Below, piece after piece: positions 770-63,663 of a DNA stretch of 64,000 nt. The DNA is from Membranipora membranacea (lineage: Eukaryota; Bryozoa; Gymnolaemata; Cheilostomatida; Membraniporidae): NCBI GenBank assembly GCA_914767715.1, contig OU612068.1:29138001-29202000 (forward strand), read 5' to 3'. Position 1 is the first letter of the stretch. Every line of letters starts with the position of its first letter. Position numbers and translations under genes: made by a program. Under the pieces are notes generated by a model. That model saw only the letters and a program-made list of their open reading frames with translations, was not told the DNA's origin and did not search any database.

Positions 770-3700
770 ATGGAGGATAGAATGCTCCATTCTATTTTGT
801 TGGTAAGTTCACTCCACAAATTCTATCAACAAGTATCCATCACCATGAAATTGAATTCAAATTAAGTTTAACATCAGTATTGCCTGTTAAAGCTTACAAC
901 TTACTCAGAACCTAACAACTATTCCTTATTTTCAGACACTTGTTATGGCTGGTTTCGTCTCAAGTTCACAGAGCCCTTTACCAATGTAAGTTAGTCAGTC
1001 ATTCAATTCTCCTTCACTATGGTTTACAGGTGTGCACAGTGAACGTGACATAATTTCGATACTGTAAATCAGTGTGATCTAGACATTGTTGACAAGGCAC
1101 TCACAACTTCTTGAATGAAATAAAATCTCTCAGACTGTCGTACCCTAATATCAATAATATTGTCCCACCCTGAATGAAAAATCAAAATACAAAATATAAT
1201 CATTCCTCCAAAACTCCTGGAAGTTTAATTATTGTAAACTTGGATCTTTATTTATTAGTTGTTTAAAATCCTGTGTCTCTATATCAGGAAGCACCCAACA
1301 GATCAGTCGCAGGATTAATATGAATGCCTTTTACCCAAAGTTCTTACTTTAAGAGTAGCTAGTCATCACCACAAAATTGAGAAATTTTTTTGTCGCTCAA
1401 TTAATTCATTTGTTGACAGGAGCTATGAGATCGTTGGCCCTCTCACAACATTTCCCTCAATTGCTGATCTAGGTCAAACTGTGTTTCATATTGAGGAAGA
1501 CAAGTTCAACCCAGGATCCATTCTGTTCTCACATGGTCATGCTCTGAAGACAGCTAATGGGCAGACGACTACCACGATTGTTGGCTCCACATATCAGTAT
1601 GGATACTTAGAAGGGGTGGGTACCTCGGCTAGGTTTTATTTAATCAACGGATTCTATCAGCTCACCCCGAGTAAAGTTATAGCAGTAGATAACAGCAACT
1701 GCTGCCTCCGCCAGATTAATAGAAATACATCACAGACCTCCGTATACACAGGCTCATGTGGCCGGGTCAGCTGTGGTTATCAGGACGGTTCAGGTAGTGC
1801 CGTGAAGTTCAGGTACCCCTGGAGTATCATAGGTGACATAAAAAACTCCAAAGTGATGTATGTCTCAGATGAATCCAACAACGCTATCCGTTAAGTAGAT
1901 TCAGAGAGTGAGGTTGTCTCGACTGTGGCACAATCAAGGGACTACCTATATTATGTGAGAGGAATGACTCAGGATAATATGGGCAATCTGTTCGTAACGT
2001 TCCTGGAAGGAATTAGTAAGATCTCCCTCTCAGATGGCGCTATGTCCATTGTGGTCGGGGGTATCAGAAAAAGAGGATATGTAGATGGTCTGTTTGAAAA
2101 GACAATGTTCAATGAGGCGAGGGATGTCTTAATGATCAACAACACAACACTAGTTGTATCTGACAGCAATAACCACAGACTAAGAATACTGGATCTCGTC
2201 TCTAACACATCCACCTCTATCTGTGCTGGACGCTGGGGAACTACAGACGGAGAACTGCAAACCTGTACGATCTCTGTACGATCTCTAACCCTAACCTCTA
2301 ACCCTAACGCTGTGACCGTTGTTGGAGAGGACCTGTTTGTTGGAGGATACAGACAAATAAGGAGAATAGCATGTGAGTACAGTGTGTTTCCCTTGGCATC
2401 ACTTCATAAGTTTGACAGATATAATAATCTATGGCAATCAACCAAGCTCTTCATTGCCTTCTCTTAGCTTCAAAGTTCAAACTCATGACAAGAAGCTACA
2501 CATTCTTTATTTGGTATTGAGTTGAGCATGATACCTATATTAACAAAAGGGACTTTTCATAACAGGTAAAAATGGTCTAAAAATTATCTTTCAGTGAAAG
2601 AAAAGGTTTCTCCAAATGTTATATCCTCCCCAGTTACGCAGAGCTGTGATGGGGCACACATCAATGGGACGCTGACTTCTGGAGAATCTGAGGCTACAGT
2701 ACATGTACGCCCCGATCTGGCTTTGACTTTGAGTGCCGGAAACCACAGCTACACTGAATTATATAACGGACTAAACTGTACTTATAATATTATGGTCTTC
2801 AAGGAAGCAGGCAAAGTAACATTCATATTATTTTTCCTCTACTCCTGTCTGCCCCTCCCCCTCTCCCAGTGCAGTGTCTGCTCTATCTTTCTATCTTAAA
2901 TACTCGAATCCCTGACCACACCCAATAAAAATCTCAGCTCGTTACATACCTATTTTTTCATCTATCTTTACTCTTTCAGAGCCGGTCGTAGTGAATAGAC
3001 TGTATATCGAGGCTAACTACACTTTATACTGTGTAGATGTGCAATGGAACCATGAGAGATATCTGCTGCGTGATTTCGCTCTTGTTAACTACCTTCAGAT
3101 CGAAGAGATATGTGGTGATGGTAAGTTAGCACGAAAGACCAAGTATTACAGAATGACACTGTCTTTGGTGTAATCAAAACAGTTTGAATGTCTTTGAAGT
3201 AGACCCTTAGCTGTGAGTTAAATCAGCCCAGAGACAAGATGTTTCTTGGTCTATTGGCTAAGATCAAAATGTCACAGCTAATGGCCGATAAATGCCAGCT
3301 TCGGTTTTGGCAGCTTGCTGCACCCTCGGTTCAGGAGGTCTTCCATGGCCTCACAGCTAGGATGTAGTCTAGTTTTCTAGGATGTAGTCTAGTTTTCTAG
3401 GATGTATTCTAGTTTTCTAGGATGTATTCTAGTTTTCTAGGATGTATCAAATTCTTAGTATGAGGAGTTATATTGGGGCACCTTGTGTCCCTCTTAAGGG
3501 GCAGCCCAATCTTCTGTTTCTTACTAAACAGCAAGACAATCTTTTCTTAGATTGTAGCAGACCATCCAGAGCAGATATAGGGATATACTGTGATAGCTGG
3601 ACTCTGACTTTACGATGGCCCACTAACCGAACTTTTACTATGGATGAGGAGAGGGAACTGGGGGAGGTGTCTGCACGCCTCACATATCGCATACAAAACA

Positions 3701-3956
3701 AAGGCTCCATGCTCAGCCAAGTATACAAGAAACAGGAACCAAGGTATGTTTCAAACAAGCACTAATTTGAATAGCTGGAATGCTTGTGATACTTAGGGAT
3801 CTGTAAGATTTTTTTACGCTTCAAGCTTTACTCCACTTTAAAATGAGGTTCGCATATCTTCACTTAATTATTTGTTGTTTTTATAGGATGATTTTTCCAA
3901 AGCAGATGACTAGTGGAGCGTACGCACAAGTCGTCTTTGTACAAGAAAGTCTGTAG
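770..3956 (+). CDS. Secreted NHL beta-propeller protein with one in-frame TAA
   Basis: Seven exons by eye: 770-802, 936-985, 1420-2372, 2595-2810, 2980-3120, 3551-3743, 3887-3956. Phases agree throughout and give about 551 codons. Exons 1-2 encode a signal peptide (MEDRMLHSILL, then TLVMAGFVSSSQ). Exon 3 encodes NHL-type propeller blades; VSDSNNHRLRILD is diagnostic, and a second blade reads SDESNNAIR. The C-terminal part (from LYIEANYTLYC to the end) has paired Cys and is a domain I do not recognise. In exon 3 a TAA at 1892-1894 replaces the residue after NNAIR, where NHL proteins usually have Lys; the frame is open on both sides. The gene may be a recent pseudogene, a null allele or contain a sequencing error. 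The intron after 2810 appears to use a GC donor. Function unknown; NHL propellers usually bind proteins or glycans. Confidence 0.75.
2264..2310 (+). repeat. Two adjacent microduplications inside the NHL exon
   Basis: An 11-bp unit (TGTACGATCTC) is repeated at 2264-2285 and a 13-bp unit (TAACCCTAACCTC, second copy with a changed end) at 2286-2310. Together they add 24 nt, so the frame is kept and about eight residues (VRSLTLTS) are inserted between TCTIS and NPNAV. Confidence 0.8.
3358..3445 (+). repeat. 20-bp tandem repeat in intron
   Basis: About 4.5 copies of GGATGTAGTCTAGTTTTCTA, with G/T variation at one site, lie in the intron between the fifth and sixth exons of the NHL gene. The paralogous intron near 9540-9640 lacks the array, so it expanded after the duplication or was lost there. 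Confidence 0.9.
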
Positions 3957-4227: not shown

Positions 4228-5742
4228 GCGCCTTGTGACACTGCTGCCTTGTGACACTGCTGCCTTGTGACACTGCTGCCTTGTGACACTGCTGCTTTGT
4301 GACACTGCTGCTTTGTGACACTGCTGCTTTGTGACACTGCTGCTTTGTGACACTGCTGCCTTGTGACACTGCTGCCTTGTGACACTGCTGCCTTGTGACA
4401 CTGCTGCCTTGTGACACTGCTGCTTTGTGACACTGCTGCTTTGTGACACTGCTGCTTTGTGACACTGCTGCCTTGTGACACTGCTGCCTTGTGACACTGC
4501 TGCCTTGTGACACTGCTGCTTTGTGACACTGCTGCTTTGTGACACTGCTGCTTTGTGACACTGCTGCCTTGTGACACTGCTGCCTTGTGACACTGCTGCC
4601 TTGTGACACTGCTGCCTTGTGACACTGCTGCCTTGTGACACTGCTGCCTTGTGACACTGCTGCCTTGTGACACTGCTGCCTTGTGACACTGCTGCTTTGT
4701 GACACTGCTGCCTTGTGACACTGCTGCCTTGTGACACTGCTGCCTTGTGACACTGCTGCCTTGTGACACTGCTGCCTTGTGACACTGCTGCTTTGTGACA
4801 CTGCTGCCTTGTGACACTGCTGCCTTGTGACACTGCTGCCTTGTGACACTGCTGCTTTGTGACACTGCTGCCTTGTGACACTGCTGCTTTGTGACACTGC
4901 TGCCTTGTGACACTGCTGCTTTGTGACACTGCTGCCTTGTGACACTGCTGCCTTGTGACACTGCTGCCTTGTGACACTGCTGCCTTGTGACACTGCTGCT
5001 TTGTGACACTGCTGCTTTGTGACACTGCTGCTTTGTGACACTGCTGCCTTGTGACACTGCTGCCTTGTGACACTGCTGCCTTGTGACACTGCTGCTTTGT
5101 GACACTGCTGCTTTGTGACACTGCTGCTTTGTGACACTGCTGCTTTGTGACACTGCTGCTTTGTGACACTGCTGCTTTGTGACACTGCTGCCTTGTGACA
5201 CTGCTGCCTTGTGACACTGCTGCCTTGTGACACTGCTGCCTTGTGACACTGCTGCTTTGTGACACTGCTGCTTTGTGACACTGCTGCTTTGTGACACTGC
5301 TGCCTTGTGACACTGCTGCCTTGTGACACTGCTGCCTTGTGACACTGCTGCTTTGTGACACTGCTGCTTTGTGACACTGCTGCTTTGTGACACTGCTGCC
5401 TTGTGACACTGCTGCCTTGTGACACTGCTGCCTTGTGACACTGCTGCCTTGTGACACTGCTGCCTTGTGACACTGCTGCCTTGTGACACTGCTGCCTTGT
5501 GACACTGCTGCCTTGTGACACTGTTGCTTTGTGACACTGCTGCCTTGTGACACTGCTGCCTTGTGACACTGCTGCCTTGTGACACTGCTGCTTTGTGACA
5601 CTGCTGCCTTGTGACACTGCTGCCTTGTGACACTGCTGCCTTGTGACACTGCTGCCTTGTGACACTGCTGCCTTGTGACACTGCTGCCTTGTGACACTGC
5701 TGCCTTGTGACACTGCTGCCTTGTGACACTGCTGCTTTGTGT
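4228..5742. repeat. 16-bp satellite array, about 95 units
   Basis: The unit is TGCTGCYTTGTGACAC, repeated about 95 times almost perfectly. The only common variation is C or T at position 7; one unit near 5523 has TGTTGC. Because 16 is not a multiple of 3 and the minus strand of the unit has no stop, all three minus frames stay open for about 500 codons (repeating SSVTRQQCHKAAVSQ); I read these as chance ORFs. The array lies between the NHL gene and the peptide-gene relic. The corresponding place in the second copy of the block (about 10.1-10.2 kb) has no array. Confidence 0.95.
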
Positions 5743-8274: not shown

Positions 8275-10025
8275 ATGGAGAGTGGAATGATCTTTTCTGT
8301 TTTGTTGGTAAGTTTATTCAAAAAGATTTATCAAAAAAGACCCATTGCCTACTAAATATCATAAATGAAATCGAGTTTAAGTTAAAGACTTTGTTTGAGG
8401 CTGCTCTTTTGTATCACATCTTATTCTCCATATTTTATTCTATCATGAGAGCGATTTTCAGCTTTAGAATCCAAATATTGAGGAAGTTATGGCCTCTCAA
8501 ACTTCCAGGGTGATTGCCTTCAATCGGCATTGGGAATAAGCGGATGTTTCCCCAGGGGTACGTCACAACCATAGACATGTGTTTTGTCTATGGTCATACT
8601 TATAATTAGTTAATACACTAATAATCACACAGATAAGATGATGATCACGCCACTTGGACCAACTAAATTTTGTCAGTAGACAATATAGCTGATTGTTAGC
8701 GGCGTTGCCTGCAAAGCCATTTGGACCTGGGTTCGACCGTCACAGATCTGAACATTTTAATCATCAACATATTTATTAGTGTATCGTAATAAGTATGATG
8801 GTTGTGACGTACCCTAGGGATTGCCGGCTGATTCTTACTGCCGATAAATTGCCGTCACCTTGGAAGTTTGAGAGGCCATAACTTCCTCAATATTTGGATT
8901 CTAAAGCTGAAAATCGCTCACATGATAGAATAAAGTATGGAGAATAAGATGTGATACAAAAGAGCAGCCTTAAACAAAGTCTTTAAGTTTAACATTTTTA
9001 TTGCATGTGAGCGCTTACAGCGTACTCTCAGAGTCTATCAATTTTTTTCTCTTTCCAGGTGCTTATTGTGGCTTGTTTTGTCACAAGTTCACAGGGCCAG
9101 TTACCCAGGTATGCTAGTCAGCTATTTTTTTACGCTCCTCAATTTGATGGTGTGCTAAGATTAGGCGCAACCCACAGATGTGATGAGTAAGATGTGATAA
9201 TGATAATATTTCAACATCGTAGAAGACTCAACGTAATCGAGACATTGTTGAAAATCAACTCACAACTTCTTGTATGAAATGAGAATCTCATAGGCTGCCA
9301 GATGGTGCCTCCCTGCCGAATCAGAAATCAAAATTTAAAAAAAAAATAACTAAAGCTCCAAAACTCCAGGAAATTTCATTTTTTATATACGAGCAGACTG
9401 AACAGACTGTATATCGAGGCTAACTACAGTCTATACTGTGCAGATGTCCAATGGAACCATGAGAGATATCTGCTGCGTGATTTCGCTCTTGTTAACTACC
9501 TTCAGATCGAAGAGATATGTGGTGATGGTAAGTTAGCCTGTTAGAGATCTGGTAACTGGTGAGATCTAAAAATCCTAAGTATCTTTAAGTGTACACTTGT
9601 CATTGTGAGTAAATCAGCCCAGAGAAAAGACACACATTTCTACATGTAGATTGTGGCAGACCATCCAGAGCAGATATAGGGATAGACTGTCATGGCTGGA
9701 CTCTGACCTTACGATGGCCCACTAACCGAACTTTTACTATGGTTGAGGAGAGGGAACTGGGGGAGGTGTCTGCACGCCTCACATATCGCATACAAAACAA
9801 AGGCTCCATGCTCAGCCAAGTATACAAGAAGCAGCATCCAAGGTATGTGTGGAACAAGCAATAATTCGAATAGCAGATTTTTTACGCTTTAAGTTTCACT
9901 CTGCCACAGAATAAAAGTTCACATATCATCATTAACTCATTTGTTGTATTTTTAGGATGACCTTTCCAAAGCAGATGACCAGTGGAGCGTATGCACAAGT
10001 CGCCTTTGTACCAGAAAATCAGTAG
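8275..10025 (+). CDS. Short secreted paralogue lacking the NHL propeller
   Basis: Five exons: 8275-8307, 9059-9108, 9397-9527, 9650-9842, 9956-10025; phases agree and give about 158 residues. Exons 1-2 encode a signal peptide (MESGMIFSVLL, then VLIVACFVTSSQG). The remaining exons are close copies of exons 5-7 of the gene at 770-3956: they encode LNRLYIEANYSLYCADVQ and the following Cys-containing domain, ending AFVPENQ. The propeller exon and the next exon are absent. Intron 2 is chimeric: it starts like intron 2 of copy 1 and runs into the exon-5 copy through an acceptor (GAGCAG, 9391-9396) not used in copy 1. The frame is kept across this join, so the product would be a small secreted protein with only the C-terminal domain. 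Expression is untested and function unknown. Confidence 0.7.
8568..8594. repeat. 27-bp hairpin, ACCATAGAC...GTCTATGGT
   Basis: A small inverted repeat in the left arm of the foldback element. The right arm reads straight through (AACCATCATAC) without it, so about 22 bp were inserted. The same nine-base ends bound a hairpin at 12422-12456. Confidence 0.6.
8684..8740 (+). repeat. tRNA-like segment in the foldback element
   Basis: The segment has an A-box-like TAGCTGATTGTTAGCGG, an anticodon-loop-like CTGCAAA (GCA, Cys if real) and a B-box-like GGGTTCGACC. The acceptor stem is not complete. It is more likely a tRNA-derived SINE head or tRNA relic than a working tRNA gene. Confidence 0.5.
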
Positions 10026-10834: not shown

Positions 10835-10840
10835 TTTATT
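10835..10840 (-). terminator. Possible polyadenylation signal of the prohormone gene
   Basis: AATAAA on the minus strand, about 300 bases beyond the stop codon. Position is plausible but the motif is common in AT-rich DNA. Confidence 0.35.
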
Positions 10841-11141
10841 TGTTGAATATATTTAGGTTTGGGAATGACAGGAGAGTATAACCCTAACATCATTGTGTTA
10901 TACGACAAGCATCGACACTGTGCTGTATATTAAACTCCGCTATTATAATAGAACCTACAAAAATAAAAAAATTTCAGATATTTTATTATGAGATGTCTGT
11001 TCCGTTGCTCTCAATAGGTTCTATTCTAAATCAACTTGCTTAATATCAAGTCAGATTTGCAAGTTGATGGCAGCTGAGCTCTTTATCAAATGAGGGAGTT
11101 GACCGCAAAAGATCCACCTTGTGCATAAAATAAGTTCAAGT

Positions 11142-13785
11142 TTATCTACAATGGTTGTAGTTGTCTTCTCGATCATTTAAAGAGGATAACTCCAAATCGA
11201 CTCTGATCAGATTTTTTAATACAGAGTTTGAATTGACCAGTTTCTTTTCAACATAATTGAGATTACTGTTGAGACCGGCACGCTAATTTAAGAATTAGGA
11301 AAAGTTGGAGAGACCATTCAACTTACCTGATATTTTCAGCAATGGCGTTACAACTGCACACATTGTACATGGCAGCACGAACAGTACCATCATCCAGTGC
11401 TGTGACAAACAGTCTCAGACTAGACTTGTTAACACAAATATTACGTACTCGAGCCAGAAGAGCTGTAGATTTAGTGGCAAATCCAGCTACAATGTCAAAC
11501 AAAATAGTTCAATTGCTGTTATCCATAAAATATGTGATAGTACTATATCTCTAGAATGGACAGATTACGCACAAAGGGCACAGACCTCACAAAAAGCACA
11601 GGCCGTTCACACTGTATGTGTAAAACACATGCATTTGATATCAGTTTTTATTGTGACAGCTACCAACTACTTAGCAAAGATATATAGCACATGAAATCCA
11701 GCTGCAGATAGATGATGGGAACCAGCTTGAGATAATCACACTTACCATGCTGCCCGGCAGCAATGTTGTGTTGAGAGGTGTTGATCTGTCTCTTCCCTGA
11801 TAAAAGCATCAAAAAAGTTCATAAAGAATCGGTAAAACTTGGTATACAAGCTGATTAAATTTTTTTTATCTGTTTGTAAACCCAAAATATTGCATTGCAC
11901 CAGGTACCAAGCATACCCAGCTCTGAGATATGAGCTGACCTCTATAAACAATGGGCTTCAGAAGGTGCCTATTTTAACAGTGATTCACAAGGTTCTGTCA
12001 AGATCAAGAGTCTTTTGCTACACCAGGAATAACTTACCAAAGTTGCGGAATCCCCCAGAGTTGTATTTAGGAGCTGGGATATCCAATGATTGACCACCAG
12101 CCTTTTCTTTAATGATCTCCTACAATGAAGTATGACACAGGGTGAAGTAGGTAGCACAATATTAAAATTATCCTCCCATGTACAAGTGTTTGACAACTTT
12201 TGAGCTACAAACTATGCTGGCTCTCTCTGCCTGCAGACATGAGAGTTAGGCTAATTATAATCATACCTGTCCCTCAGCAGAGTCCAGAATATTCAGCACA
12301 TCATTCTGTAAGCTGTCATCATTAGCTCTCTTCCCTGAGTAAAATACAGAAAATACAGACCTGTTTACTTTGGATATGGTACATGAACAAAACAGTTTCC
12401 TTTTACAGAGTGACAGTGTCCACCATAGACTTAATATACTATATTAAGTCTATGGTGTCCACATGTAAAGTGATGTAGTGTGGCTGTTGAAGCATCGATC
12501 CAATTCACACATCAAAATGTTCTCATCTAACTTACTTATCTAACAGTAGCTTACCAACATTTTTGAACCCGCCTGAGTTATATTTCGGTGCAGGAATATC
12601 TAGTGCTTTACCATCTGCTTTCTCCTGCACTATGTCCTAAATGATTTATAGATCAATGTCAACAAGAATAATCTCTGTGAGTTGAAGTTTTTAGTCTAGG
12701 TAGTTTAATACTTTGTATAAGAAATGCTGAAGATTTTGTCACATCGTATGAAATGCATGAACTTCATTAGTTCCATACCTGTCCCTCCTTTGAGTTGAGG
12801 ATATTTAGGACCTCTGACTGTAACTCGTTATCTTCACTATCACGTCTCTCATACAGGGATCGTCGTCCTTGTACTGGACCAACATTCAGAGCTCCAGGGC
12901 TTTGTCTCTGAGATATAATGCTGATATTAAAGATCCTCGGCAATGAGGTGATTTTGGAAAAGCTAGGAGTGGTCAATTGATTAAGGGTATGAGTGATTTA
13001 AAGGGCTTTTCAGGGATCTGGTCATATCATCATGATTGAGTACTGGTATAACAATTCTAGGAGCTCACTTCACTGCTTCTCTCAAAACTCACACACAGCA
13101 AATATGAAAAGAAGTCAGAAATTCAGCGGGCAAGAGTATAGAATATGGATTAAATACTAGGATGTAAGCATATGTAATCAAGAGGAGATAACAGCCGATG
13201 CAACGACAGCAGGATAAGGTTTAATAGGCTATGAAATACCCGGTGCACCCCTGGGGTACACAGCTATGCATAATAGATGTGTACTTACCTTGAATTCAGC
13301 ACAGGCTCCTCGAGCAGCGAAGCTTGATGACAGACCCTCGATATAGTTAGCAATACCATCATCCATCATCCTGTGCTCCACCATGTAGATGAAGTCATTA
13401 TTAGCGGGTGATTTATACAGAACATCGGCGACCAACTTCACAAGCTGGAAAATACCAATAATAGTTATCTCCAGATAATCTATGGCTATTAAAAGTATTT
13501 TGGAGTGAACCACAGTGAAAGAACTTTTTTCTTTCAAAATATTAGATATTGAAACCAGCCAAAATGGCAATTGGTGCAGTTCTATTTTGGTTGTAACAGT
13601 TCCTGTGCCCAAAACAAAAGATCCCAATCATCCTGAGGGCCAATGCCTCAAACTCCTATCAGCTATAAACAGAATGATTCACGTAGACTTACAGCCAAAG
13701 CTCTGGGATTACTAGCAGATTGTGCGACATGATATCCAAAAGCTGCAATCACACTGCAGAGGAAGAGAGTTCTCAGCAAGGCCAT
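11142..13785 (-). CDS. Secreted prohormone with amidated repeat peptides
   Basis: Nine coding exons (minus): 13693-13785, 13289-13444, 12779-12907, 12555-12636, 12267-12334, 12038-12119, 11746-11796, 11327-11486, 11142-11202; phases agree, about 293 residues. A 5'UTR intron fits 13793-13878. The start gives a signal peptide (MALLRTLFLCSVIAAFGY). Dibasic and amidation signals are clear: KR-QSPGALNVGPVQ-GRR predicts a pyroGlu, amidated 12-mer, with KR formed across an exon junction. Then come two related peptides of about 48 and 47 residues: first ends PKYNSGGFKNV-GKR, second PKYNSGGFRNF-GKR. Both share VLNIL, a central EGQ and LDIPAPKYNSGGF. Each long peptide is split over an exon pair (phases 0/1), so exons 3-4 and 5-6 are duplicates. 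The tail is a domain of roughly 80 residues with four Cys. Processing by proprotein convertase and PAM is inferred. I recognise no known hormone family; GFKNV recalls allatotropin, but position and remainder differ. Confidence 0.75.
12421..12457. repeat. 37-bp near-perfect palindrome in intron
   Basis: Arms of about 17 bp around ACT, starting CACCATAGAC and ending GTCTATGGTG, lie in an intron of the prohormone gene. GTCC flanks the core on both sides. The ends match the small hairpin at 8568-8594. Confidence 0.75.
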
Positions 13786-16728: not shown

Positions 16729-19700
16729 ATGGAGAATTTAGTGGCACCAGCGATATGTTCAAAAAACTCAAAACACAGCATAGAGAATTTGCTAGGTATA
16801 AATGAGAATAGCAACATGTGGGACACAACGTCTGACGTCAACATTACAAAAAAACCTAAACTAGCTAGAGAGAGAAAACGAAAACGGCACTCCAACACAA
16901 CTCAGCAGGAAAATGGTAAGATATGGTGATCAAATGCTTATTGTGGAATTGCATTTTTACGGTCAAATTTCTCACTGGAAAAAATGACTACGATACATAA
17001 CTTTTTAATCACGGCTTTGTTTCTTGTATCCCGCTAGGACTTCTTGCAAACATTTTAGAATGAAGACCAATTTCAGTAGGTACAAAGGATTTGGTTATTT
17101 AGCATTGAAACTTTCATGTCCTTATTCCAATCATCAAATATGAAATTCTGAGATCAGATAATCCAGTCGAACACAGATGATGAAATTTGGAGTTCTCTGT
17201 ACTTTCCCATGTGATTAATATTTGGCTATTCTCTTTTTTCTTTTTTTTATGCAACAATCTTCATCATTGAAATGATGTTCTTCCAAAAAGTGAGACATAG
17301 ATGGCTCGGCTAAATACACAGAAAACACAGAAAACTTTTCAATTTTCATTCAAAATTGAAAAATCTTATAGACTTATCCGTCCATCCATTCAAAATGACA
17401 TATGATATGCTCCTAGGGAATTAAAAAACCTCTCTGGTTAAAAGCTGTTGAGAGTTATGCTGCATCCATAAACTTTACCCCTAAAGCATGAAGTGGTTTA
17501 ACATCCTTCTGAAGCCTGATATATGTTGCTCCAGGTAACTGATTTTGTTTTTTGATTCTCCAGTTCTGCATAAAAAAAACCAGTGGCGCACCTTTCAGTA
17601 GAGCCACATAGACAATAAATATCTTGCGAACATGGGAATCCCCAAATGTTTTGGACTAATTTTCTCGATAGGAATCTGCAAACACTCCCACTGACAGAAG
17701 ATTTCCATGATAGAGGCAGTACATTTCTTATGGAAAATGTTGCTATTTGTTTAAACCAAGTTACAAGTTGTGGGAAGTGATTAATGTTGGTTTTTTCTTT
17801 TACAGATGTGAAGGAGGTAAGAGACAAAACCAGCTACGGAATGGCCATGAGGAAAGAAGAGAGGTCAAAGAAACACAGAAGAAACCGAACAACATTCACA
17901 ACGTACCAGCTTCATGAGTTAGAAAGGTCAGACATGTACATTTGGTTTGACGCACCAACAGGGAACATCAAGACCCCTTCATACTTTGAGCTAATATTAG
18001 TTCTATCAATCATGATTTCAAGGGACAATCAGAGCGTACATAAAGTATTCATGCAGCTATGTTCAGAGTTTTGTCTAGATTAGCAGCCAAATTATCATAC
18101 AGGAAACTGTTTATCATTATTTTTATGTCAACAAATTTCTCAAAAGATTTCATTAGTTTTTTTTGTTTGTCAAAAGACACAAAAAGTTTGGATGGATCCC
18201 AACATTGTCAATAATACACAATTAAAATAAAACAAAAATCAAACACTTTAATGGATTTTAATGTAAAATTATAATTTTCACCTAAATCCACAAAAGAAAT
18301 TGTTGAAATTTAAATTTCATTGCCAGTAAATTCACAAAATGCAACTTATAGAATTGTTTAATAAAAACAAAAAAAATCATGCGCATTTAGTTTTTTAATT
18401 TCAGTGCGGTCACCAAAATATTCAGTGTGTATTTTCATCCTTCGATAGAGTAGTCCTTATTTCTAATAAAGATTTTGGTCTAGAACACAAATAAAAGACA
18501 TTATTGTTTGATTTTTGTTGCTTGTAGAGCTTTTGATAAAAGTCACTATCCAGATGTATACAGTAGAGAAGAGATAGCTATAAAAGTGGATCTCCCAGAA
18601 GTTCGAGTTCAGGTGAGCCTTCTTCCCCGTCTCCTCCATCCCCTTAATTTATCTGATTTATTACAAACCTTTTTAATATATTAAATACTTATTTTGTCGT
18701 CAACTGCTTGATAACTACAACTTGGGTATTTTAGCAATGGGCTACCGACAGACATAGAGCAGGGTGGCATGGTTAACATGGGGTTCGGGTGAAGTATAGT
18801 CTTGTTATATGTGAGGCAATACAAGAAAGCGTCATAAATTCCCAGTTTCTGAACGTTTCCTATTGCTCCATTGCTTTATTATTCAATCTGATTTTATCTC
18901 AATACTTAACCTCCAAGACAAATTAATAGCCCAGAAAGTGAACCTGAAAATAATTCTGGATTCAATAATTTACTCAAGTCGCCATGCCCATGACGACAAT
19001 TATTGAGACGGTGCTTCTGGAATTGTCAGCTACTGCAAAAAAAAGAGAATATTTGAACACCATATGAATTTTCATATTTTATCTATACACAGCTCTGATT
19101 AACTTTTAAAACTTGGTGTTTTTATTAAGATTCAGAATTACTGATTGTGGTATTCATCTGATTAAGTTGAGATGGAAATCCAATTATTTAATTAGTTTTA
19201 AATTCGATTTCAAACATTTGCAATAAAGAGGGAATTAAATGATTGCGTTTGATCAAACTAGGGGAATAATAATCTACTTATAATAATAACTTTGTGGGCA
19301 GGTGAATGATAATAGATTCGATGATGTGTGAGTTGGGCTAAATTGATGACGATAAAGCAAGCATTGATTGTTATCCATTTTACCCACGGTACTTAAAACT
19401 GGCTGACTTGTGTAATTACAGCTAATTATTTAAACGCTCAAAATTAGACGAGCTCTTGAGGCTGTATGATCAAAGGTATTGTGAGCAGGTTGCATGGTAG
19501 ATTCAGTCCTAAATTACAGGCACACTTAGCCGATACAACACACTAATATGATGGTAATTTACAAATTCGCTTATAACTAATTTTGTATTTGAGTCAAATC
19601 ACTCAATCAGACATTGGCCGTGACAGACTGTGGGAAATTTATTATATTATGTTCTTTTCTCTGTCTAATTGGCCTTACAAGGGCATTAATTCTATAATTG

Positions 19701-20724
19701 GATGCCTGAGGTACAGTGATAACATGGGATCAGCTATCCATACAAGAGCAGGCATAATATCCCCACCGTGTATAATCAATAATACAGTGATGTATAATTC
19801 ATTTACAAATTAAAATTAGGTGTTTAATCATGGAAAACAATTACATGACCTCCCCACTGTTGAAGAGAAGCAATTTAAAATCAAGCTGTGAGCAATTTTC
19901 TCCCACATTTACGCGGCGGCTACTAAAGTAATTAATATTTTCAAATCATGATTGTATTCAATGCTCATGGCAACAGGGAGAATTCTCCCTGATGGCAACT
20001 ACCTACAAATAAATATAATTACATAACTCTACTGTAATAGAGTAAGTCCTAAAAATATAAAAAATCAAGATAAATATTATTAACAAATGTGGAAATCAAA
20101 AGTAGATGTACCATTCCCTGCATGTACATACATATGTATGTAATACCAGTATGTAAGTGATGGTTCGTATATATATATATATATATATATATTTGATAGG
20201 TTTGGTTTCAAAACCGGCGAGCAAAGTGGAGGCGACAGGAGAAGTTAGACATAGGAGAGAGCGGTAGTGAGGAGGATTATAGCCCTCAGAATCTTGGCAA
20301 CGATAAATTTAATTCTCTGTCAACTGCTGGAGGTATGACTCATCACGGACAGCCAGCTGCCAGCATGACTAACAGCGGCAGCGGGGTAGGCGGTAGCACT
20401 GCGGCGGGTCTATTTCTACCTAAGATGGAGCAGTGGATGAGTTATCAGTTACTGACAGCAGCAGGTTATCCTTATATAACATCAGCTACAGGTAGTCACT
20501 TCGTCCCTACCAGTAATACATCGGGGCAGCAGCAGCAACAACAGCAGCAGGCTAATAGCTTCCTACAGTCATTCACTGGGCCGACAAATCCTAACATCAA
20601 CGTCCACGACATGCCTAACATGACTCTGAATAATACTAATTTCGCCCCCATCATTGGTCTCACTAACATGCATAATAATAGATCAATGGGTAACACTGCA
20701 GGGGCAGTAGATACTAATATGTAA
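16729..20724 (+). CDS. rx: Retinal homeobox transcription factor Rx
   Basis: Four exons: 16729-16915, 17806-17926, 18528-18612, 20200-20724; about 305 residues. Exon 1 carries the Rx octapeptide (HSIENLLGI, a Groucho-binding EH1-like motif) near residue 20 and a basic stretch ([11 protein letters not shown]). The homeodomain begins [18 protein letters not shown], continues [20 protein letters not shown], and ends [17 protein letters not shown] with Gln at position 50. These are Rx-class residues. Introns split it after LER and at the PRD-class 46/47 site (VQ|VW). The C-terminal part is Ser/Gly/Asn-rich with an eight-Gln run. I see no OAR motif, which many Rx proteins have. Rx proteins specify eye and anterior brain or neurosecretory fates in many animals. 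The gene faces hbn tail to tail. Confidence 0.92.
20168..20192. repeat. AT dinucleotide run at an rx splice acceptor
   Basis: About 12 TA units end seven bases before the AG of rx intron 3 (TTTGATAG, exon from 20200). The usual pyrimidine tract is replaced by this unstable repeat. Confidence 0.85.
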
Positions 20725-58762: not shown

Positions 58763-61700
58763 ATGCATGATCTGGCTATCATAGGTCTATTTCTTCTAAC
58801 ATTGATTGTTTCCTGTGAATCTTTTGATGCTCCTGTGTGGATTTGTCTCGGTAACGAAATTGGCAGCTGTTATTACAAGGTTAGTTACCCCTAAATCATC
58901 TCTATATTTTGAAGTGTCTGATTAATTGTTCTGACATCTCTACTTGTTCATATGAAAATACTGCCTCCAAACTCACTCTCTTTCTATATATACTTACTAT
59001 CACTCGTCACTCGGGCATGTAAACTCTTATATTCTGTCCTCCTACTTTAGAGAAAAGAGTTGCCTGCTCTATCTTATGATGAGGCCCAGCAAGATTGTGT
59101 TGCTAACAATGGGACGCTGGCTATGTTCCCTTCTATAGAGGAGATGGAGATTGTGAACCAGGTCATTACTATTGAGGTCAAGATCAACCTGAACGGAGAG
59201 AAGGAGAGAGCTCCACATCGTTTCTGGGTCGGTGCAAAATGGGATGTGAACCTCCATGACGAAGTGAAAAACCACAGTAGTGAGTGTGTATAGATGTTTA
59301 GTTTGTGTAGATGTTAGCATAAGATATGATAACAAGAAAACAAAGAGATTCGTTAGTCTTAAAACGACTCAAAAGTATATTTGTTGCGATAAATGATATG
59401 GTAGACCTGAACCTGAAGAAATTTTCTTATGTATTGAGTACCTGTGCGATTATCCAACAAAAATTTTGAGGCAGAACATGGAAAAACAGAATCTACTCTG
59501 CTCTTAATTTGTGTTGCAAACTGCGTCAATCACAATCTGAACCCAACAATGGAAAATATAGATACCTCAACTAATTTCTTTGATTAATTATGTTGATATT
59601 CGTTCTTTTTAGTTTATTGGGAGAATGGACACAACGCTAAGAGAGTGCTGCCGTATAAATGGAGACCTGTGTATAGATTTGAAGATGGTGATGCTAGTAT
59701 TAGAACTGGCAGCGGCTGTGTCATAGTTGAGGTTTACATTGAGGATAGATATGTCGTGAAAACGAGACTTCGTAAAGTTAGCTGTGATATCCAGGCGGAT
59801 GTGACTAACTTCATGTGCGAAAAGTCTGATGCGGATGACCCAAGTGAGTGCTAAGTCTAAATTTTAACTTATAGTCCTTTTCTCTTACACTTGTTAACCT
59901 GGGGGGTCTTTCAATTAGAAAGAGTGATCCTTTACTAAAGCAAGTTATCACTATCGCATCACTGTCACATCGCTCAAAATTATCACTCACTTGGTGTTTC
60001 AATTAGAGAAAATCACTCCCAAATCGCTCACTCAGAATGTATATAGTTCCATCAAGTGACTGAGTGATCTGAAAGCGAGACCCCTAGCAGGTATCGCTCA
60101 CTCAGTGAGTGAGCGATAATATTGCGATTTTGGCTGTTTCTAATTGAAAGACCCCCCTGGATGAAAAGCATAATCAGTAGTAATGAGCAATGACCTACAT
60201 GTTTTACTTTCACTTATTTTGGATTAAAATGGAGGTCACCTGTACAATGCAGATAGAAACTAGCATAACCATGTCATAGAACAAAGTTTACTGTTCAAAA
60301 ACAGTTTAACGATTTTATTTTTTGAGTTGTCTTCTCTTTTAAATTGTCTCCATTAGCTGTATGAATTGTATAACCTACAGATCCGACTCGCTGGTGGCAG
60401 CAGTGGGCAGCCTGGCCCAGAGATCTATGTGTAGATGGAAGTATATCAAGTGCTAATAGGACAAGACTCTGTTTTAGCCGTAAGTTATATGAAATGGTAC
60501 AACATTGCTCATTTGTTATTGCCCCTTCTTTCCGCTGTTACTTACATTTTCTTCATGTTTTGGCGGTACTGACTGAAGAATTGTTGCCAGTATTAGGTAG
60601 TGAACCTGTACCTGAACCATTTGGCCACTCCCCTGGACTTACAGCCCAGATGTTACTCCGATTTTAGCCATGTTCTGTGGACTGTTGACATTTGTTGATA
60701 TTCTGGCATTGATTGTCATTGCATGTTGTTTTATCAACTGGGAGGTCATGAGCAATTTTTTTTATTATTTGTCAGATCCATGTGAGCTGGACGGAATGAC
60801 AGAGCAGAAACAGATAAGAGCCTGCTGTGATGCTCCACCACTTCGAGTCCCTAATGGAGTTGTTGTCAAACGGGTATGTTCATCATCAAAGCTGCACGCA
60901 CATGATTTCCCTTCATTATGTCTCAACTACCATGTGCCTCACTGGTGCAAAAGACCATAACCATAACCTTCAAAGATTTTCACATAATATTTATATATGT
61001 TTTTTATTGTGAAGAACTGAGATGAAACTTCCCCCTTCGCCTATCTGATGAGTTCCAATTTTCCATAGTAGTGATCCCATCCCAAGTCAAAACCTTCTGA
61101 TATGTTACTCCAAACATGTGACTGATAAGCTCAATTAAAGGTCATCAAGAAAAGGTCAAGTGAAGGGGAATGAAGACAAACTCATTTAATCTGATTCACG
61201 ACAACTTGTCAAATCAAGGAGGACCTTTTTACTCCCCTGTTAAATAGAGTGATTCAGCTTCTCTTCCCAGTAGATTTGCCTACAACAGATGTTTTAATTG
61301 ACATTATTATCTACTTTCAGTATCGGAACGATTACTTTGGGCTGACTGAGTCTCGAGCCATACATAATAACACAGTAACCATAGTATGTAATAGAGGATA
61401 TGTAGACCCGATAACCCGCCTCTCTACTATAGAGAGTACGTGTCAGCTCAATGAATATAACGAGGGAAGGTGGTTAGGTGCTGTACCTGACGAATGTGTT
61501 ATAGTAGACTGCGGAGATCCTCCTCTTGGTGTACACGCTTTCCCTCCACAAGTAAGCAGGATTTGTTTTTTTAAGGTTCTTTATGGGATGTTGCAGACAA
61601 AGAATATTGAGAATCTGAAACAGATCTGTTGCCCACTCCTTGAATGAGGGAGTTACCGCAAGCTGGAAACCTGTGTGCGAAGAACTTGCCTTGATTTGAA

Positions 61701-63663
61701 GTGTGGGACTGGCTATCAACTGAAATTGCAAACCTTCATGATCTAAACTAAATGCCATACATACAGCCTATTGCCATCAACTTAAATCAATTCGTCAAGT
61801 CAAGCAAATATTTCTTTCGTATATGTTGTAGTTCACAAAGACAACATTTGGTTCTCTGGCCACATACTGGTGTCAGCCCGGATTTAAGGAACCGAAGAAC
61901 AAGAAGTCTAGTGTGACCTTGAGATGCGACACAGAGGACTCCTGGATCGGCCTCGACTTTGATCGTACAACTAAAGCTGTGTGTGAACCTCTCAATCTAG
62001 TTAGTATGCCCTGGTAAGTTATCTAGATAGTATGCCCTGGTGAGTAATCTAGTTATGGTAAGTAAGCAGCTAGAATCTGCAACAGATTGGGATCTATGTC
62101 TCTGTTCGGAGAAAATCATTTTGGCTGAAAGTGTACGTTTTGTGAGATGATTCTGATTTTGACCAATTTATTAAACGCTGGGTTCTAAATTATAAACAAA
62201 TGCTTATTCTGAGTACAAATAAAGTTAAGCTCCGTGAAATTCAGGGTGCCCATTTCTTCAAGATGAACTGATGCTTATGATATTTGTAGGCAGTACTATT
62301 CACCATCAGTAGAGGGTGGTAATGATCACTGTTATAAGCTCAATCATACAGGTACTACATGGGCTGAGGCTCACCTGCAGTGTGATGGAGGGCTGTTATA
62401 CATAGAGGAGGTTCTAGAGATGGAGTTCCTGAGGAGTATTATACTGGAACCTCAGGCTGAGAGGAGTGTTATATGGACTGCAGGACGTAAAGATATGGAT
62501 GGTGAGCAGCGTTCCTCCATCACTATTATACCGGAAGCACACTTGTCTGCACGATTGAAAGCAATTATTTGGTATTCTTTTGCGATTGTAGCTGAAGGTC
62601 CGATATGCGATAAAATTTGAACTGTTTGAAGACCGATGTGATATTTTTTTCCTTAGGAATGGAAAAAAAATGATCATTGTTCAACATATTGGAGTGAGCC
62701 ATTGCGTTTGAATGTAAGGTTTGCTGGAACCTTTTCGTTTTAGGGTAAATACTATACAACATCTTCACATAAATGATAATAATACATGTATTCAAAAACT
62801 ATGTCTCAGTCCATAAGAAAACTTCCTATTCAAATCAGCAATATTCAGAGTGTTATTATTGTTATCATTGTTTTGTTGTTGGCAGAGATGACGTTTAACT
62901 GGAGGCTGGAGGATAATACAAAATTAGATATCGGGGTTGACCAAGTCAATGTGAGATATATGAACTGGGCTCCGGATCATCCTGTTGTAACAGGTCACTA
63001 TCATCGTGACCTCTGTGTAGCGGCCAACTACAGGTCAGTCTCTCTTATTGTGCAGTGATTGGTCAGTTTCTCTGTGCTTACACTTCTCCCCCATATATAA
63101 ATCTTTCTCTCAGACACTTGGTGTCTGAGTTATGTTTTTATGCCATACTAATAGTGTTCTGAGTTTGTGTAAAGAGAGGCCTCTCTTGTTGTAGCGATGA
63201 ACAGTAATTTTCATTGGTTATATTAAGCATGGCTCAAAGAATGAGTAGAATTATCTGCTCGTGAAGGCTTACAGCGTGAGATGTAATGCATATACAATAT
63301 ACGATATTGTAGCGATGGACAATGGTTCTGGGTTAATGTCACATGTGATAACAAGTTTGAGTTTCTGTGTAAGACCATGAAGCAGAAGTTACATGGTGAC
63401 TTCAGTGACTGGTCACAGTGGACTGCCTGTGATAGACAATATATACGTAGGCGGAGTCGTACATGTACTAACCCCGCCCCTTTTTGTGGAGGTTCAGACT
63501 GCCAAGGGGAGACTGAAGAATTGAGGTTTGTTTCTTCCTTTACTGTCTTGAACCCTACAGGATGAAAAGATTCTTTTGAGTTTAAAACTTTGTTTGGTAA
63601 ATATAGTTATAATTTTCCTGTATCATTTAATTTTCTATTCTATTTTCCAGTTCTCAAATGTAA
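58763..63663 (+). CDS. Secreted mosaic C-type lectin (CTLD-TSP1-CCP2-CTLD-TSP1)
   Basis: Eleven exons with consistent phases: 58763-58879, 59051-59279, 59613-59843, 60381-60479, 60776-60873, 61321-61551, 61832-62013, 62290-62501, 62886-63033, 63313-63525, 63651-63663; about 590 residues. Signal peptide MHDLAIIGLFLLTLIVSC. CTLD1: GSCYYK, SYDEAQQDCVANNGTLAMF, RFWVGAKW. TSP1-1: RWWQQWAAWPRDLC, RTRLCF. CCP1: RVPNGVVVKR, NTVTIVCNRGY. CCP2: VDCGDPPLG, ATYWCQPGF. CTLD2: DHCYKLNHTGTTWAEAHLQC, MNWAPDHP, FEFLCK; the usual EPN/QPD plus WND calcium motifs are not evident, so sugar binding is uncertain. TSP1-2: FSDWSQWTAC, RRRSRTC, then CQGETEEL. The last 13-nt exon gives only SSQM and leaves TSP1-2 without its sixth Cys, so the true end may lie outside the window. 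Probably an extracellular recognition or matrix protein. Confidence 0.8.
59902..60156. mobile_element. 255-bp MITE, Harbinger-like, in lectin intron
   Basis: Terminal inverted repeats GGGGGTCTTTCAATTAGAAA and its complement at the right end, flanked by CTG on both sides (59899-59901, 60157-60159). A 3-bp duplication with G-rich ends suggests PIF/Harbinger. The inside contains a GCTCACTCAGTGAGTGAGC palindrome. No coding sequence. Confidence 0.7.
61997..62053 (+). repeat. 26-bp tandem duplication across a splice donor
   Basis: TAGTATGCCCTGGTAAG and TAGTATGCCCTGGTGAG follow each other 26 bases apart, so the lectin exon 61832-62013 has two donors (GT at 62014 and 62040). Using the second would add TGG-TAA in frame and stop the protein after CCP2. 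Confidence 0.8.

Follow-up and report, generated by a model that had tools for sequence, protein, structure and literature searches.

The window, that is, the whole 64,000-nucleotide stretch of Membranipora membranacea DNA analyzed here, carries on its minus strand a gene with nine coding exons, which runs from an ATG at 13785 to a stop at 10930 and spans 2,856 nt of genomic coding sequence. All eight introns begin with GT and end with AG (8/8). The spliced translation is identical to a public protein, P0001, in 281 of 281 residues. P0001 is the representative of five member sequences on four contigs (sources jgi and lgn), the longest of which has 1,026 nt; this is too short for the genomic span, so P0001 derives from intron-free sequence and, most simply, from mRNA. 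We conclude that the prohormone gene is real. The original prediction had ended the gene at 11142, which is the end of the open reading frame 11282-11142, whereas P0001 joins exon 8 (to 11327) directly to 10954-10930. Thus the predicted exon chain is unbroken when set against the intron-free protein (281/281), but its last exon differs.

The precursor is composed of a leader (residues ~1-24), an N-terminal segment (25-82), a KR pair, QSPGALNVGPVQ-G-RR, SLYE-RR, a 48-mer (...DIPAPKYNSGGFKNV-G-KR), a 47-mer (...DIPAPKYNSGGFRNF-G-KR) and a C-terminal segment of 75 residues, the first of which is Q. On the minus strand, exon 1 (13693..13785) is identical to P0001 and contains the start codon at 13785 and the putative signal peptide (residues 1-24, 13785-13714, cleavage point placed by eye). 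Exon 2 (13289..13444) encodes the conserved N-terminal propeptide (residues 32-83) with an invariant Cys79, and ends with the K of KR83-84; the KR pair is therefore formed across the exon 2/3 junction. Exon 3 (12779..12907) supplies the R, followed by QSPGALNVGPVQ-G-RR, SLYE-RR and the first half of long peptide 1. Within it, 12866..12904 encodes the predicted 12-mer, pGlu-SPGALNVGPVQ-amide, together with its Gly. Exon 4 (12555..12636) encodes the second half of long peptide 1, its donor site falling within the Gly codon; exon 5 (12267..12334) completes this codon and adds KR and the first half of long peptide 2. The same arrangement recurs in exon 6 (12038..12119, second half of long peptide 2, donor within the Gly codon) and exon 7 (11746..11796, remainder of the Gly codon, KR and the start of the C-terminal segment, QINTSQHNIAAGQH). 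Exon 8 (11327..11486) encodes a conserved C-terminal core, VRNIxVNxSSLxLF...ALDDGTVRAAMYNVCxCN, with an invariant Cys266, and exon 9 (10930..10954) has just 25 nt, (R)FYYNSGV-stop. A candidate polyadenylation signal, identified by its AATAAA motif only, is located about 90 nt past the stop (10835..10840). Judging by the intron phases, exon pair 5+6, exon pair 4+5 or exon 7 alone could each be skipped with the reading frame intact, which would allow a peptide unit to be lost through alternative splicing.

The initiator M at 13785, the hydrophobic leader, KR-QSPGALNVGPVQ-GRR and the units ending in NSGGFKNV-GKR and NSGGFRNF-GKR are all present as first described, and the peptide lengths of 12, 48 and 47 residues are the same in the spliced translation. 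The leader was judged by hydropathy and by eye; its core scores 2.17, against 2.15 for another, equally hydrophobic stretch that starts at residue 29. Glycine precedes three of the five dibasic pairs, so that dibasic convertase sites with amidation glycines are present. When residues 25-281 are shuffled at constant composition (200,000 shuffles), at least three G-[KR]-[KR] sites occur in only ~0.23% of cases. At least five dibasic pairs, on the other hand, appear in ~29% of the same shuffles; this count is ordinary, and the number of dibasic pairs by itself proves nothing.

Comparison of the two long peptide units provides the strongest evidence for a functional product. Each unit is split over two exon pieces, and the introns match: one follows EGQ in phase 0 and the other interrupts the codon of the amidation Gly in phase 1. 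Introns at matching places show that an exon pair was duplicated. Over 50 codons, the two units differ at 23.4 of 32.0 silent sites (pS 0.73) and at 24.6 of 118.0 replacement sites (pN 0.21); over the last 20 codons, pS is 0.82 and pN 0.10, and in DIPAPKYNSGGF all differences between the units are silent. It is this low pN despite a high pS that argues most strongly that the peptide tail is functional. In terms of their sequences, the units are best described as old exon-pair copies kept alike by purifying selection. That the two units were duplicated, or homogenized by gene conversion, only recently is ruled out, as silent sites are near saturation; the paired introns of the two units reach best local raw scores of just 14 and 16. 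In alignments against shuffles, the two units are the only related segments of the precursor. The idea that a single helical repeat is present four times, as the N-terminal segment, the two units and the C-terminal segment, found no support in these alignments. Single-sequence alignments of the N-unit, N-C and unit-C pairs in the window protein gave p ~0.15-0.98 (2,000 shuffles), the lowest value for any pair was 0.08 once the segments of a relative from Bugula were included (2,000 shuffles), and profile-profile comparison of the segments returned probabilities of 0.2-0.3%.

This relative, the Bugula neritina hypothetical protein EB796_018510 (P0002), matches 81% of the query at 57% identity (E 6.6e-67); taken by itself, the relationship makes a bryozoan origin of the window most probable. 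It is the only named relative among the matches listed in three protein searches, which require shared 5-residue words and gave two proteins at E<=1 (998 candidates scored) and at least three and at least nine proteins at E<=10 (7,999 scored each). Besides P0001, which is the window gene itself, and P0002, the nine listed proteins include P0006, which holds exon 2 (52/52), and P0004, P0005 and P0008, which contain stretches of Bugula sequence; the pieces in these Bugula-like contigs were recovered with Bugula in the query. The remaining three, P0003, P0007 and P0009, match one exon each, always an N- or C-terminal one, and come from sources that are neither the window gene nor Bugula-like. The absence of middle exons from these three sources is not evidence of loss, because short exons are hard to find alone.

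The Bugula protein has the same order of segments (N-segment, VGPV-GKR, unit, unit, C-segment) and the conserved C-terminal core, and its predicted units have 50 and 47 residues, compared with 48 and 47 here. Unlike the window gene, the Bugula model has its initial M within exon 2 and no signal peptide. The SLYE-RR spacer is missing from it as well, the KR ahead of the first peptide is replaced by K-Ala, and its second unit ends in HGYKRFIRR, the amidation Gly being lost (FIRR versus GKR). P0008 agrees with this HGYKRFIRR reading as far as KRF. P0009 has Gln for Lys at the end of exon 2, if the exon border is placed correctly. Two of the three amidation sites, those before RR98 and KR155, are kept in Bugula, as VGPV-GKR and GFSGV-GKR. 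In P0005, a second NIPVGPVG motif occurs in an open frame just before the PVDLPVGPVGKR exon; it may be a former copy of the first peptide, now lost.

Since K-Ala occupies the place of the KR in Bugula, the pyroGlu 12-mer does not appear to be a conserved product. The original prediction of a secreted multi-peptide precursor stands in its three amidation sites and its lack of a recognized family, but its pyroGlu 12-mer is poorly supported as a conserved product. Judged from the sequences, the 48- and 47-residue amidated peptides are the best-supported putative products and the 12-mer the weakest. The monoisotopic MH+ values calculated for the putative products are 1148.606 for the 12-mer (pGlu, amide), 5215.603 for the 48-mer amide, 5047.503 for the 47-mer amide and 8101.059 for the C-terminal 75-mer (pGlu, reduced).

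The identity to Bugula is distributed unevenly: 18/31 for residues 52-82, 6/13 for the first peptide with its Gly, 29/48 for unit 1, 24/48 for unit 2 and 50/74 for the C-terminal segment, with 37/49 in its core. The C-terminal segment is thus more conserved than either long peptide, and the N-terminal segment is about equal to unit 1. Exon 2 is identical to P0009 in 43/52 residues, to P0007 in 41/51 and to Bugula in 19/32, and exon 8 to Bugula in 40/53 and to P0003 in 36/49. The conserved segments in exons 2 and 8 were overlooked in the first description; the exon 8 part is the most conserved with respect to Bugula.

Conservation of 50/74 at the C-terminus against 29/48 and 24/48 in the units would be unusual if the middle peptides were the sole product. 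Could the main product be a protein hormone made from the N- and C-terminal segments, joined as in insulin by a Cys79-Cys266 disulfide, with the amidated middle peptides as connecting or secondary pieces? Cys79 is invariant in all four N-segments compared and Cys266 in all three C-segments, the C-terminal core is 37/49 identical to Bugula, and the single exons in P0003, P0007 and P0009, neither from the window gene nor Bugula-like, are all N- or C-terminal. However, recovery favors long exons, and the middle exons encode only ~17-43 residues. Moreover, no relation was found between the N- and C-segments, in Bugula the N-segment is conserved no better (18/31) than unit 1 (29/48), and strong purifying selection acts on the middle units. 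We consider such a hormone unlikely. It is similarly doubtful that the gene encodes a two-part system, in which the Cys79-Cys266-paired end chains would act as a protein hormone while the two long amidated peptides, placed as the connecting part, would form an independent second signal, an arrangement conceivable from the sequence.

It also seems quite improbable that the gene is a highly diverged member of one of the known long-peptide families (CRH/DH44/ELH, NPY/NPF, PDF, calcitonin/DH31, kisspeptin or whitnin). CRH/DH44/ELH prohormones do yield amidated peptides, and in some species precursors are described in which DH44/ELH peptide motifs occur twice or more (PMC6425005); by analogy, the present gene may work like these multi-copy precursors. 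Against membership, a Pfam search of nine sequences including P0001 at E<=10, in which HMMER filters drop many weak matches, returned four weak families, none of them a peptide hormone, and among these sequences there was no profile match to CRH/DH44/ELH, NPY/NPF, PDF, calcitonin or kisspeptin, weak matches to which may have been filtered. The four families, Proton_antipo_C (E 0.0069, 1/9 sequences), KH_DEAH11_2nd, HTH_47 and DUF6640, were discounted as weak; five of the nine sequences (P0003, P0005, P0006, P0008 and P0009) seem by eye to include translated intron. Solved structures gave weak, short matches only (best E 0.22), and Bugula remains the sole named relative among the matches listed. 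The original assignment to no known family therefore agrees with Pfam, solved structures and protein searches, none of which gave a credible family. Mollusc whitnin (SPTR/PKYMDT), whose precursor of 114 residues carries a PKYMDT peptide as well as ERYM, a peptide with a disulfide bond (PMC3434067), shares only a 'PKY' triplet with the window protein, in whose 281 residues PKYMDT was not found by eye. The Bugula pedal peptide/orcokinin precursors (BnFDSIG-like, BnPep-like) are likewise multi-copy and cut at dibasic sites, but their peptides have 12-14 residues with IGxG (PMC4990251), a motif absent here by eye. Resemblances to kisspeptin, SIFamide, enkephalin and PDF found no support. A scan of genome contigs with two patterns, bearing on a prokaryotic origin, gave 64 pattern matches and no relatives. 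Least probable, in our opinion, is a secreted non-signaling protein (a gland, adhesive or immune secretion) with furin-like cuts and glycines placed by chance: one of three amidation sites is indeed lost in Bugula, but three such sites are rare by chance, two are kept there, and the two near-identical peptide tails have been retained despite saturated silent sites.

Long amidated peptides are known in the CRH/DH44/ELH group. The description of the long peptides as unusually large was thus overstated; the NPF peptide published for Bugula, for example, comes to 34 residues when counted from Table 2 of the survey (PMC4990251).

We therefore favor, with a probability of about 0.72, a peptide prohormone gene of a bryozoan family not recognized before, whose main signals would be the two long amides. 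The Bugula protein opposes this reading at two points, with FIRR in place of GKR at the third amidation site and K-A in place of KR before the 12-mer. As in peptide-hormone biology generally, the precursor would enter the regulated secretory pathway, where convertases would cut at KR and RR, a carboxypeptidase would then trim the basic residues, and an amidating monooxygenase would convert each exposed Gly to a C-terminal amide. Each long peptide would have a variable and perhaps helical N-terminal half, then the conserved DIPAPKYNSGGF tail with its amide, and these two peptides would be the main signals. The shared tail may be read by one type of GPCR, most likely on neurons, muscle or ciliated cells. 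As for the N- and C-terminal segments, they most likely help the precursor to fold and to be sorted, or are released along with the peptides.

In bryozoans, one neuropeptide survey reported 11 Bugula precursors, detected by homology to known peptides (PMC4990251). The present gene is not among these 11, in keeping with its original description as undescribed, and a survey built on homology would miss a family of the bryozoans' own. A second bryozoan survey was not found by title among the matches listed, subscription journals and preprints being outside the scope of the search. Other bryozoan-related titles among the matches listed include PMC7194087, on a Fredericella transcriptome, and PMC3503879, an antibody study in which bryozoans are named. 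Six peptide strings searched in the literature returned nothing related, only a bacterial vaccine study. Phoronid- and nemertean-specific neuropeptides are reported (PMC8557429); the main text of this study of a nemertean, a brachiopod and a phoronid contains none of the terms 'bryozoa', 'Bugula', 'NSGG' and 'PKYN'. The present family overturns nothing, as phylum-specific neuropeptides are expected: it is a bryozoan prohormone family that is new but of an ordinary kind, undescribed in the searches made. Nonetheless, bryozoan peptide signaling is little explored, and the gene offers sequences from which antibodies, probes and synthetic peptides can be made, with a relative available in Bugula, a species in which larval settlement is under study.

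Elsewhere in the window, there are two paired-class homeobox genes, which by their motifs look Rx-like (17877-20724, plus strand) and homeobrain-like (30583-28910, minus strand). A scan of the window with two homeobox patterns found no third homeobox. The two genes are perhaps part of an hbn-Rx-otp cluster, as described in Drosophila (PMC10671637). Two open frames on the plus strand, 62267-62620 and 61195-61647, by eye resemble C-type lectin and sushi-type extracellular domains, with no Pfam match at E<=1, and an NHL repeat match lies within ORF 1895-2467. The stretches 3433-3765 and 9613-9864 (plus strand) are exon-like and, by eye, closely alike (RPSRADIGI..C..WTLTLRWPTNRTFTM.EERELGEVSARLTYRIQNKGSMLSQVYKK), a sign of duplicated genes. 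Finally, positions 4230-5741 are occupied by a tandem array of 94.5 copies of a 16-bp unit (GCCTTGTGACACTGCT, 97%), which sits in open frames of more than 500 codons in all three minus-strand frames.
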